A stretch of DNA of 33,657 nucleotides from a virus, in the IMG/VR virus record IMGVR_UViG_3300028595_000041, positions 1 to 33,657 of that record; one strand, 5' to 3'. The position numbers and the translations under genes were made by a program. The notes beneath the pieces were generated by a model. The model ran no database searches, had not been told where the DNA came from, and worked only from the letters and a program-made list of their open reading frames with translations. Position 1 is the stretch's first letter; every line of letters starts with the position of its first letter. Positions 3,245 through 6,586 of the stretch are shown one piece after another.

Positions 3245-3841
3245 ATGGCAGCAGGAACTATCACGCTCAAGCCGATCAAGGTTGAGAGAATCGGCGTTAC
3301 GATCGAGGGAATCAGCCCGCTCATTCAGCATTGCTGGGATGAGAAGTCCCGGAGGCAAATGCGCGAGAAGAAGGCCGGCAGGAAAACCAAGAATATCGAG
3401 GCGTGCGACCCGCAGGCCGAAGCCGAAGCCGCCACGTATTACACCGCAGACGGAAAGAATGGAGTCCCCGTGTCCGCCCTGGCCAAGTGCATCGTCGGCG
3501 CCGCCCACAAGGACATCGGCGTTGAGAAGACCCTCGTCCGCAAGTCTATGTTTATCGAGTGCAACGACTCGCGCGGCGTCGTGGAGATGACTTGCAGCGA
3601 ACCGCAGATCAGGGAAGACCCGGTCCGCGTCGGGGCTGGGTCCGCCGACCTACGCTATCGCCCGCAGTTCGATACGTGGTCGGTCGACATCACCATCGAA
3701 TACAACCCGGATATGATAACGCCAGACGTTATCGTCAACCTCATCAACCTAGCCGGCTTCGGTGTCGGCATCGGCGAGTGGCGCCCGGAGAAGGGCGGCG
3801 ACTTCGGGCGCTTCCGAGTGAAGGGACGTGATGATGCCTAG
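3245..3841 (+). CDS. Conserved-type phage protein with RAMP/Cas7-like features
   Basis: This 198-residue protein starts at ATG 3245 with AAAGG at 3234-3238. After a beta strand it has EGISPLIQHCW (21-31), a basic helix (34-49), GVPVSALAKCIVGAA (73-87), a beta-rich middle, and a C-terminal Gly-rich loop GFGVGIGEWRP..GGDFGRF (171-190). The order of strand, helix insertion after a Pro-Xaa-Ser-Ala-Leu turn, and a terminal Gly-rich loop resembles RAMP-fold proteins of CRISPR complexes, but this is my pattern inference only. I recall similar proteins beside phage recombination genes without an assigned function. It is coupled to the next gene by overlap, and both may act on single-stranded DNA with ERF. 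Confidence 0.6.
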   Translation: MAAGTITLKPIKVERIGVTIEGISPLIQHCWDEKSRRQMREKKAGRKTKNIEACDPQAEAEAATYYTADGKNGVPVSALAKCIVGAAHKDIGVEKTLVRKSMFIECNDSRGVVEMTCSEPQIREDPVRVGAGSADLRYRPQFDTWSVDITIEYNPDMITPDVIVNLINLAGFGVGIGEWRPEKGGDFGRFRVKGRDDA

Positions 3842-4325
3842 TCCTGTGTTCTACAAGTGGGAAACCGGGTTTCGAGCCCGCGTCAAGGCCGACGTCGCCG
3901 GGGCCGAGCTCGAGCGGATACGAGACGCACGCGGGTCGCTGACCGCGGACATCGTGCGCGACGAGGCCCGCGACAAGGCAAACCCGCTGCACCCTCAGAT
4001 CTTTGACCTGTCGGTGAAGAAAGCGGCCGAGGCTCATTATCTGCGGAACGCACAGCAGACGATCCGGGCTATCCAGGTCGTCTTTGAGGACGTCCCAGAC
4101 GCGCCGGTCCGACGTTTCGATTACGTCACCGTGGCCGATGCTAAGGGCGGGGTCGGCGCGTTCGCCCAGTATGATCGCGTCGAAGATATCCTGTCCGACC
4201 CCGAGAAGCGGGCGGTTCTATTGGCTCGCGCGTTGAGAGAAGCCGAGCAATGGCGGCGTCGTTACAGCGAGTTGCACGAGTTATCGAGTGTTTTCGCGGC
4301 GCTCGAGAAGGTTGCGGTCGCCTAG
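3831..4325 (+). CDS. Hypothetical protein coupled to the RAMP-like gene
   Basis: The product is 164 residues from ATG 3831. GTG 3828 and ATG 3834 are alternatives, and AAGGGA at 3821-3826 fits 3834 best by spacing. It overlaps the upstream gene by 11 bases. The N-terminal half carries a KWETGFRARVKA segment. The C-terminal half is helical and charged, with ALREAEQWRRRYSELHELSSVFAALE as a probable coiled coil. No catalytic motif is visible. Overlap with the preceding gene suggests the two proteins work together. The gene ends just before the GGCNN tract. Confidence 0.6.
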   Translation: MMPSPVFYKWETGFRARVKADVAGAELERIRDARGSLTADIVRDEARDKANPLHPQIFDLSVKKAAEAHYLRNAQQTIRAIQVVFEDVPDAPVRRFDYVTVADAKGGVGAFAQYDRVEDILSDPEKRAVLLARALREAEQWRRRYSELHELSSVFAALEKVAVA

Positions 4326-4338
4326 ATGTTGGTTTCGT

Positions 4339-4709
4339 GGCGAGGCAAGGCAAGGCGGGGCACGGCTTGGCAAGGCGGGGCACGGCACGGCAGGCACGGC
4401 AAGGCACGGCCAGGCACGGCGAGGCCTGGCGCGGCACGTCCCGGCACGGCAAGGCAGGCACGGCAAGGCGCGGCTCGGCTTGGCTGGGCGGGGCAAGGCA
4501 GGCCTGGCACGGCGAGGCGGGGCGGGGCGAGGTCTGGCACGGCGAGGCTTGGCAAGGCAGGCAAGGCGGGGCACGGCCAGGCACGGCTTGGCAGGGCATG
4601 GCCAGGCAAGGCAGGCACGGCTGGACACGGCTTGGCCTGGCTGGGCATGTCAGGGTGCGGCAGGGCAGGCTGGGCTTGCACAAGGCTGGGCAAGGCAGGC
4701 GCGGCAAGG
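4339..4709 (+). repeat. GGCNN pentanucleotide repeat tract
   Basis: For about 370 bases the + strand is an almost unbroken series of GGC triplets spaced five bases apart (GGCAA, GGCAC, GGCGG, GGCTT, GGCCA, GGCTG), with occasional four-base slips (GGCA). Because the units hold almost no TA or TGA, all six frames are open across the tract. That makes the 5-residue-periodic Arg/Gly/Ala or Pro/Cys/Leu translations artefacts rather than evidence of coding. The tract is strongly G-over-C skewed and sits between the recombination genes and a promoter plus RNA structure. The role is unknown. A replication, partition, recombination or packaging signal is possible. Confidence 0.85.
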
Positions 4710-4745
4710 TAAAAGATTTTGCCTTGTCCATTCGGCAGAAAACAC

Positions 4746-4774
4746 TTGATGGCAGACGCCTTGAATGGTAGAGT
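4746..4774 (+). promoter_or_regulatory. Predicted extended -10 promoter
   Basis: TTGATG (4746-4751), a 17-bp spacer and TAGAGT (4769-4774) with TG at 4766-4767 have the same architecture as the promoter at 741. The expected start site, about seven bases after the -10 box, coincides with the first base of a long RNA helix (4781). This is the only promoter-like signal I can support between 770 and the ParB-MTase gene. Confidence 0.5.
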
Positions 4775-4780
4775 GCTCAA

Positions 4781-4886
4781 CGGCAGGTCGGGCAACATGG
4801 AGTTTTTCTATGATAACTAACAGCGGCGCAACTGGTTTCGGGCTCCATGCGGTCCCGATCTGCCGACCAGGGGCGCCGCTGTTTTT
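4781..4886 (+). ncRNA. Predicted structured RNA or 5' leader with alternative folds
   Basis: CGGCAGGTCGGG (4781-4792) pairs with CCCGATCTGCCG (4854-4865), 12 bp with one G-U, and CATGGAG (4796-4802) pairs with CTCCATG (4843-4849), so one helix of 19 bp with a small internal loop starts at the predicted transcription start. A competing fold is AACAGCGGCGC (4819-4829) with GCGCCGCTGTT (4873-4883) plus CTGGT/ACCAG and TCGGG/CCCGA inside, followed by five Ts. The two folds share the 4854-4858 segment and interleave, so they are probably mutually exclusive, as in an attenuator, or form a pseudoknot. It may be a stand-alone small RNA or the leader of the ParB-MTase mRNA. A 7-codon frame (ATG 4797 to TAA 4818-4820, MEFFYDN) lies within it, with only a weak ribosome site. 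Confidence 0.55.
4819..4886 (+). terminator. Intrinsic terminator-like hairpin before the ParB-MTase gene
   Basis: A perfect 11-bp stem (4819-4829 with 4873-4883), extended by a 5-bp inner stem (4832-4836 with 4866-4870), ends in a T-run at 4882-4886. Its position only 19 bases before the TTG start of the next gene means termination here would switch that gene off, so it could be regulatory rather than a simple gene end. The long loop is unusual for an intrinsic terminator. Confidence 0.5.
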
Positions 4887-4904
4887 GCTGTGAAGGAGCG
4901 AGCG

Positions 4905-6074
4905 TTGGAAAAGGACGTCCGCGTCAACCTGGTCCGGGTATCGGGACGACACAGGAAAGACTACGGCGATATCTTGGCGCTGGCCGAGAGTATCCAAAGG
5001 TTGGGGCTGCTACAGCCTATCGGCGTAGACAGCGAATTGAACCTCATCTTCGGAGAACGTCGCCTGATTGCCCACCGGCGCCTGGGTCGCGAGACTATCC
5101 CGGCCCGAGTTATCGACCTCGACGACCCGCTACAGGCCGAGTTCGATGAGAACGAGACGCACAAGCCCTGGCTGCCGAGCGAGCGGGTGGCCATCAAAAA
5201 GGCGCTGACGGCGCGCGAGGGCAGGCCGAACAAAAACGGTGCACATGTGCACCGTTTAGACAAACACGAAGCGGCTAAAAAGGCAGGATTCGATAGCTAC
5301 CGAACCGCCGCACTGGCCGAAGGCGTCGTAGATAAAGGCGCGCCAGAGCTGGTAGACGCAATGGATAGCGGCAGGGCCAGCATTCGCGCGGCCGCCGACC
5401 TCGCCTCACTGCCGAAGGACGAACAGGCCGAGGTCGTCGCTCGAGGCGAAAGCGAGATACTACGGCGGGCCAAGGAAATTCGGGCGGCCAAGCAAGAAAA
5501 GCGCCGCGAGGAGAGGACGGCCAAGGTGGTCGAACTCGCCAAGCGTGAGCATCCGCTGGCTTTCGCACAACGATTCCCGGTCGTTTACGCAGACCCACCC
5601 TGGAAATACGACTACACAGAAACCGAGTCGCGCGCGATCGAAAACCAATACCCAACAATGGACATCGACGACATATGTGCGTTACCGGTTGGGGATATCG
5701 CGGCGCAGGATGCAATCCTTTTTCTATGGGCGACCAGCCCAAAATTAGAGGAATCGCTGAGGGTGCTCGCCGCGTGGGGATTCAACTACCGAACTTGCGC
5801 GGTATGGGATAAAGAAATCATCGGGATGGGCTACTACTTCCGCCAGCAACACGAACTTCTGCTGGTCGGGACCAGGGGCGATATCCCAGCCCCGCCTGCG
5901 CCAGCCCGCCCGCCGTCAATCATCCGACACAGGCGCGAGAAACACAGCACGAAGCCGGACGCTGTCCGCGATGCGATCGCCGCCATGTACCCAGATTTCG
6001 CAAAGATCGAGCTGTTCTGCCGCGACCCTCGGGACGGCTGGGAGGCTTGGGGCAACGAGGCTGGCTCGCTATGA
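4905..6074 (+). CDS. ParB-domain / MT-A70 adenine methyltransferase fusion
   Basis: This protein has 389 residues from TTG 4905, chosen because AAGGAG (4893-4898) is six bases upstream. GTG 4890 is in frame but lies at the end of the hairpin without a ribosome site. Residues 1-75 form a ParB/Srx-type domain (IQRLGLLQPIGV, FGERRLIAHRRLG). Residues about 115-190 are a helical HTH/linker region with a charged coiled coil. From about 215 comes an MT-A70 methyltransferase with the catalytic DPPW at 230-233 and ILFLWATSPKLEESLRVLAAWGF. MT-A70 enzymes transfer methyl groups from S-adenosylmethionine to adenine N6. In a phage this could protect DNA from restriction or mark replication sites. The ParB part would direct DNA binding. 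Confidence 0.85.
   Translation: MEKDVRVNLVRVSGRHRKDYGDILALAESIQRLGLLQPIGVDSELNLIFGERRLIAHRRLGRETIPARVIDLDDPLQAEFDENETHKPWLPSERVAIKKALTAREGRPNKNGAHVHRLDKHEAAKKAGFDSYRTAALAEGVVDKGAPELVDAMDSGRASIRAAADLASLPKDEQAEVVARGESEILRRAKEIRAAKQEKRREERTAKVVELAKREHPLAFAQRFPVVYADPPWKYDYTETESRAIENQYPTMDIDDICALPVGDIAAQDAILFLWATSPKLEESLRVLAAWGFNYRTCAVWDKEIIGMGYYFRQQHELLLVGTRGDIPAPPAPARPPSIIRHRREKHSTKPDAVRDAIAAMYPDFAKIELFCRDPRDGWEAWGNEAGSL
5234..5257. promoter_or_regulatory. 24-bp perfect palindrome inside the ParB-MTase gene
   Basis: Half-site AAACGGTGCACA (5234-5245) is followed immediately by its exact reverse complement TGTGCACCGTTT (5246-5257). It encodes about residues 110-118, between the ParB and methyltransferase domains. 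A spacer-less 24-bp palindrome is unlikely by chance in a 33-kb genome. It could be a parS-like binding site for the encoded ParB domain or an autoregulatory operator. Confidence 0.6.
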
Positions 6075-6586
6075 CCGTGGTGCATGATTTCAAGCAATGC
6101 CTCGAGTACTCACACAGCCAGTCCGACCAAAACTGGTGGGGCGAAGTCTATAAAAAGGCTTTTCCCTCCCTTATCGCATTCCACGACATGAGACACGACG
6201 GTTGGTGGCAGCGGGGCGGGATTGACCGTCTGCTGATTTTGCCGGGCCGGACCGTTGCCGTGGACGAAAAGGTAAGGACGCGCGACTACGGAGACATTCT
6301 CCTTGAGTATTGGAGCGTCTACGAACAGAAAAAGCCTGGATGGGCCGTTAAGGACCAGGCTTGTGATTTTATAGCCTACGCCATACAGCCGACCAAGCGC
6401 TGTTACCTGCTACCGTTCCACACGATGCGGCTCGCCGTGACGAAATACGGGCGCCGGTGGCTCGACGAGTACGGCTGGACCACCGCGCAAAATCATGGAT
6501 ACACAACGAAAAGCGTGGCTGTGCCGACTGACGTTCTGATGTCGGCCCTCGGCGATGTCATGCTTGTAGGGTGGGGGGCTGCGTGA
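6071..6586 (+). CDS. Putative PD-(D/E)XK-type nuclease
   Basis: The product is 171 residues from ATG 6071, in an ATGA overlap with the methyltransferase stop. An in-frame start at 6047 lacks support. The core around GGIDRLLILPGRTVAVDEKVR (49-69) has the spacing of a PD-(D/E)XK site, with D52 after a hydrophobic turn and D65-E66-K67 as the (D/E)XK triad on the next strand. Upstream His/Asp residues (R41-H42-D43) could add to the site. Members of this fold include phage exonucleases, resolvases and repair nucleases. The context, between a methyltransferase and the replication genes, fits DNA processing. The fold call is by motif only. Confidence 0.5.
   Translation: MTVVHDFKQCLEYSHSQSDQNWWGEVYKKAFPSLIAFHDMRHDGWWQRGGIDRLLILPGRTVAVDEKVRTRDYGDILLEYWSVYEQKKPGWAVKDQACDFIAYAIQPTKRCYLLPFHTMRLAVTKYGRRWLDEYGWTTAQNHGYTTKSVAVPTDVLMSALGDVMLVGWGAA

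Follow-up and report, generated by a model that had tools for sequence, protein, structure and literature searches.

The gene for a ParB_N and MT-A70 DNA/RNA methyltransferase (ParB-MTase) in the window, that is, the whole 33,657-nucleotide stretch of virus record IMGVR_UViG_3300028595_000041 that was analysed, is preceded by a 5' leader in which two long helices of nearly equal computed energy exclude one another. One of these helices is a terminator placed directly before the Shine-Dalgarno sequence (SD) of the gene, and the same layout recurs in other phages. The leader can be read with reasonable confidence as a cis-acting two-state element (an attenuator) of the ParB-MT-A70 transcription unit, for which the predicted output here is transcription attenuation. 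It looks like a real phage gene-control device, and one that has apparently not been described before.

All features of the leader (4746-4905) lie on the plus strand. Helix A, the candidate antiterminator, pairs a 5' arm at 4781-4802 (CGGCAGGTCGGGCAACATGGAG) with a 3' arm at 4843-4865; the original prediction placed it at these coordinates with 19 pairs, and duplex folding retained the coordinates and raised the count to 20 pairs (-36.9 kcal/mol). Helix B, the terminator stem, pairs 4819-4836, located inside the loop of helix A, with 4866-4883 (16 pairs, -31.8 kcal/mol). The 11-bp stem that had been proposed for it (4819-4829 with 4873-4883) is correct as its outer part and too short, as an inner part (4832-4836 with 4866-4870) is joined to it across a 2x2 internal loop. 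The T-run that had been noted at the end of the stem was located at 4882-4886, so that the 3' arm and U-tract of the intrinsic terminator together span 4866-4886; this U-tract is short, with five T of which the first two fall within the pairing, and it limits the attenuator reading. The arms are ordered A5', B5', A3', B3', which places A3' inside the loop of helix B. Given that A3' and B3' directly abut at 4865/4866, helices A and B cannot both form completely, and a pseudoknot containing both in full would be sterically implausible. Two possible leader ORFs were found, the first (4797-4820, ATG to TAA, encoding MEFFYDN) with a weak ribosome site and not significant alone, and the second (4810-4893, 27 codons) preceded by GGAG at 4799-4802 and ending with a TGA at 4891-4893, just past the terminator.

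A sigma70-like promoter was predicted at 4746-4774 (TTGATG at 4746-4751, a 17-nt spacer, and the extended -10 element TGG-TAGAGT, 4769-4774). It is predicted from a consensus match only, with 8 of 12 positions plus TGn and a score of 9.5; just six sites of this score occur on both strands of the 33.7-kb window. The predicted transcription start site (TSS) at about 4781 coincides with the first base of helix A (offset 0), in agreement with the earlier claim that the helix begins exactly at the predicted start of an extended -10 promoter. The methyltransferase gene (4905-6074; Pfam PF02195 and PF05063, PHROG 21315, and relatives) probably starts at TTG 4905 and not at GTG 4890, judging from the sequence context: GTG 4890 has no SD, TTG 4905 is preceded by AAGGAG at 4893-4898, and alignments with relatives begin in the region of TTG 4905. 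The SD lies outside both helices, 6 nt past the U-tract, and the gene start lies 19 nt past the terminator. Since a further promoter would not fit into these 6 nt, every ParB-MT-A70 mRNA has to cross the terminator, and the intrinsic terminator between predicted promoter and gene is the arrangement expected of a leader attenuator.

Fusions of ParB with MT-A70 are already known, according to excerpts from PMC12704722, and excerpts from a paper on phage ParB with MT-A70 make no mention of a leader. Searches of IMG/VR and GTDB for close relatives of the ParB-MTase gave none over the full length; the best match had about 50% identity over nearly the whole protein, and higher identities in these databases were restricted to parts of it. 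A partner gene without Pfam or NCBIfam match follows at about 6074-6586 and carries the motif DEKxRxKDYGDILLE. In most relatives the partner gene is located directly 3' of the ParB-MT-A70 gene, and DEK.R..DYGDILLE is invariant in its protein; that this protein is nuclease-like is a guess.

Competition between the two folds was followed by computing energies for transcripts of increasing length. Fold A was the minimum for transcripts ending at 4865-4880 (-41.0 to -43.4 kcal/mol), fold B took over at 4883 (-46.4 vs -45.4 kcal/mol for fold A), and fold A was again the minimum for transcripts reaching 4910, 4950, and 4990. At 4888 the antiterminator (-45.6 kcal/mol) is of comparable stability to the terminator (-46.7 kcal/mol), with which it is mutually exclusive. 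The cross-over from A to B coincides with the last terminator base pairs and the U-tract, and in 6 of 6 elements tested fold A was favoured until the last few nucleotides of B3', with fold B favoured at the end. The earlier proposal that two competing folds form an attenuator was therefore strengthened by the near-equal exclusive energies, the position of the cross-over, the lack of promoter room, and the recurrence of the layout.

In the mechanism that we propose, transcription would begin at about 4781 from the predicted promoter, and helix A would form first, with B5' enclosed in its loop. RNA polymerase would then tend to continue into the genes for the methyltransferase and its partner, and probably also into the replication gene that follows, such that read-through would be the default because helix A forms first. 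Were helix A blocked or displaced, helix B would form and transcription would stop at 4886, yielding an RNA of roughly 105 nt. We infer that something flips this switch, and the simplest candidate would be a ribosome on a leader ORF, with the SD GGAG (4799-4802) situated in the A5' arm; a ribosome on the ORF that begins at ATG 4810 would couple translation to read-through. An ATG ORF spanned the element in 7 of 13 cases, where 2.3 would be expected, a difference that is only suggestive.

The minimum free energy (MFE) of the region was better than that of 200 out of 200 dinucleotide shuffles (z -3.3), with z values of -3.2 to -4.5 across other transcript lengths, and crossing helices this strong were obtained in 0/60, 0/100, and 0/200 leader shuffles. 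The statement in the original prediction that complementarity of this length in both helices is unlikely by chance is thus upheld. No sequence homologues of the element were detected in phage records, in the window's own record, or in the fetched loci, and what supports a structured RNA is that the layout reappears where the sequence is unrelated. Rfam covariance models (riboswitch, T-box, and other) gave no match at gathering thresholds, with a weak and meaningless miRNA match at E 0.74, and a tRNA search of the element returned none. No antisense promoter with a score of at least 8 was found near the window element, and elsewhere the occurrence of such promoters was inconsistent among elements. 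Several candidate features were set aside. A function on the minus strand was rejected (weaker fold, z -1.6, 14 of 200 shuffles as good, no T-run), as was an integron attC site, for which the terminal AAC/GTT is present by eye and the flanking boxes misfit. A third pairing between A3' and the ORF start (4852-4871 with 4928-4947) was matched by 0/200 shuffles with the chosen segment, was not significant with a wider one, and had a counterpart in no other element except L187; hence it is not claimed.

A terminator scan with filter returned helix B as the sole terminator-like structure in the window, and it ranked first in strength among 200 in 1.09 Mb of DNA from the window and related phages. 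Helix B might accordingly be an ordinary terminator of the upstream unit (gene 3828-4325 and an array of GGCNN repeats) that is crossed with a phage antitermination protein, leaving helix A incidental or a protein site. Terminators between early units are common in phages, and lambda Q passes a terminator near its promoter, and being the only such structure in the window would suit this role. We regard the explanation as improbable, however, given that helix A exceeds all shuffles, that the interleaving recurs in other phages, and that in the closely related locus L156 (portal 77% and terminase 69% identical) the array runs to the next gene with no terminator between. In L156, the contig of which starts inside the array, the ParB-MTase, the partner gene, and the leader are all absent, and the array is followed directly by an uncharacterised replication-initiator-like gene. 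The joint absence of methyltransferase and leader indicates that the leader goes with the gene, and it probably belongs to the methyltransferase cassette.

The upstream array itself covers window positions 4340-4710 and consists of GGC plus two variable bases, repeated over 55 pentamer steps; a tetramer step, GGCA, recurs within it, mostly 5n+4 bases apart (mode 54). Such arrays were present in 48 of the 80 IMG/VR loci with homologues of gene 3245-3841 and in 2 of 159 other loci; all 59 arrays lay on the coding strand, with none on the opposite one, and were positioned before and/or after genes 3245-3841 and 3828-4325. These genes form a two-gene module (3245-4325; PHROG 4652 and 15946, unknown function, no Pfam match) that travels with the arrays and in some loci lies near ERF/SSB-type recombination genes. 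The array looks like a conserved repeat system tied to this module, and is possibly undescribed.

The layout that recurs in other phages comprises a sigma70-type promoter, A5' at +1, B5', A3', B3', an SD, and a start codon, in sequences that are unrelated. It was found before relatives of the ParB-MT-A70 gene and before other early genes (HNH, RNA ligase, replication initiator, and D5-like primase), at loci L178, L187, L193, L196, L205, L225, L163, L236, L257, L077, and L141, with up to three copies in one phage. L178 has the promoter TTGACA-N17-TACAAT, a helix GTTGGAGATCTCAT / GTGAGATCTCCAAC from +1, and a crossing helix of 25 bp ending 2 nt 5' of AAGGAG. Loci L193 and L236 are one phage, in which the elements precede the ParB-MTase and an RNA ligase (Pfam PF09414) and both have TTTTTT. 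The three copies of L196 precede the ParB-MTase, an HNH gene, and a replication-initiator-like gene (by eye, no Pfam match). L257 (G006), which came from scanning further phage parts, has TTGACC-N17-TAGAGT, A5' starting at +1, and a DUF5906/D5-like gene after the element. The offset between predicted TSS and helix A was 0 in most promoter-anchored cases, and other strong promoters of these phages have plain short leaders. Helix B has no U-tract in L178, L187, L163, L257, and the third L196 copy, about one-third of the recurrent cases, which indicates that termination is not the output everywhere.

Separate observations were made on one of these phages and on one further locus. The L196 elements are located at 2890, 4664, and 6185, and L196 is the same phage as L233; two of its elements contain a third helix C (GTTAGTGAT/GTCACTAAC and AGTTTGTGAG/CTCACAAACT) in the same place, with a compensatory change from A-T to T-A. 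In the ParB-MTase leader of L109 (780-943), four complementary pairs follow one another as an overlapping ladder, and the SD region is covered by the last pair.

Enrichment was determined on 887 intergenic leaders from non-redundant loci, with interleaving called at p ≤ 0.01, and these tests are exploratory in that thresholds were set after the first examples were known. Significant interleaving was present in 8 of 50 leaders of MT-A70 genes vs 27 of 837 others (Fisher p = 4e-4), or 7 of 49 when the window was removed (p = 0.002). Most of the MT-A70 leaders, 42 of the 50, thus have no significant interleaving, which counts against the reading. A terminator-like hairpin at most 70 nt from the start was found in 12 of 50 vs 68 of 837 (p = 9e-4; p = 0.0025 without the window), and shuffles predict 4.2 of 50. 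In a promoter-anchored scan of 1.70 Mb of non-redundant loci, five cases with the weaker helix at -18 kcal/mol or below were observed vs 0.15 expected, or four after subtraction of the window (Poisson p about 2e-5); L257 is the only complete-layout match obtained under criteria already in use. In the annotated isolate phages examined, the MT-A70 gene lies in a tight operon with no leader, and as an independent set they speak neither for nor against the leader reading.

Without the promoter anchor the signal is nearly gone in the G+C-rich background, for which reason only promoter-anchored or leader-specific tests were used, and isolated crossing stems without such an anchor should not be over-read. 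That the helices are chance complementarity in G+C-rich DNA would agree with the genome-wide count of strong crossing stems without a promoter anchor, which is only slightly above shuffles (43 vs 28 at -22 kcal/mol). It is nonetheless a very improbable explanation of this leader, in view of the 0/200 shuffles, the promoter-anchored enrichment, and the multiple copies per phage with identical helix order in G001 and G005.

Elements without a U-tract also bear on a different use of the same structure, namely a timer of mRNA stability, RNase III cleavage, or translation, in which helix A would be a fully paired protective 5' end and refolding to helix B would free that end and put a long duplex beside the SD. 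A stem that starts exactly at +1, as helix A does in most promoter-anchored cases, would fit 5'-end protection, such a timer could operate with or without a U-tract, and B duplexes of 16-25 bp (L178, L205, L216, L002, and the third L196 copy) fall in the size range of RNase III substrates. Against this, helix B carries a terminator-placed U-tract in the window and several other elements, and the SD is in neither helix, and we consider a timer unlikely as the explanation of the window element. Judging from the elements that have no U-tract, translation or mRNA decay may be what such leaders generally control.

The strong terminator, compact stable fold, and own predicted promoter would also suit a stand-alone or dual-function phage small RNA, with the terminated RNA of about 105 nt as the product. 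Through its A5' and B3' arms the short form is complementary to the A3' and B5' arms of the read-through mRNA, and excerpts from PMC4825925 provide a precedent in Gifsy-1 IsrK. The phage contains no further complementarity beyond 11 nt elsewhere, though, the gene start follows 19 nt past the terminator with no other promoter, and in other phages an SD and a start codon follow the layout in case after case, even where there is no terminator. A small RNA is thus less likely than a leader attenuator, and we would give it a low, though not negligible, probability.

The attenuator would be one member of a class in which a 5'-terminal hairpin competes with a hairpin just 5' of the SD, with termination as the putative output here and in roughly two-thirds of cases. 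Somewhat more tentatively, the recurrent elements could make up a class of phage leader RNA that is new and is defined by its layout, not its sequence (a hairpin from +1 with, in its loop, the 5' arm of another hairpin ending just before the SD), reused in up to three copies per phage for the timing or level of early DNA- and RNA-metabolism genes, with termination only one of its outputs. Attenuators are usually found through sequence conservation or Rfam models, and a type defined by geometry only would escape detection. If confirmed, the class would represent a compact, protein-free gating of early genes by phages, would explain why some MT-A70 methyltransferase genes have their own transcription units, and would provide natural bistable RNA switches of 90-150 nt.

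Among known systems, the trp and pheA leaders are ribosome-controlled attenuators with exclusive antiterminator and terminator. The window element shares with them the leader position, this exclusivity, and a possible leader ORF, and differs in having no clear regulatory codon run, a leader ORF that is only suggestive, and the arm order A-B-A'-B' with B5' inside the A loop. The lambda pR'-tR' 6S leader is subject to Q antitermination and has no interleaved antiterminator; promoter, terminator about 100-200 nt on, and then gene are common to both, and the interleaved antiterminator is present only here. According to excerpts from PMC4825925, the short terminated form of Gifsy-1 IsrK targets in trans the read-through mRNA that comes from the same promoter. 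Both systems would combine a prophage promoter with a short terminated RNA and a read-through mRNA from one start, whereas the window element is predicted to act in cis and matches no Rfam family. The P4 CI (seqA-seqC) immunity RNA is described in the same excerpts (PMC4825925) as an alternative pairing that leads to premature termination before replication genes. It likewise involves a leader transcript with alternative pairing and short and long transcripts from one start, but in P4 the antisense RNA is processed and there are several complementary boxes, compared with two boxes and no known processing here. In the copy-number attenuators of pT181 and pIP501, as excerpted from PMC4878617, an antiterminator hairpin holds the 5' arm of the terminator, or an intrinsic terminator precedes the replication gene. 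In these plasmid leaders the switch is an antisense RNA made from the opposite strand, whereas the window element has no antisense promoter with a score of at least 8 nearby; the plasmid leaders share with it the same two-way folding of a 5' leader, in which structure is kept and sequence is not.
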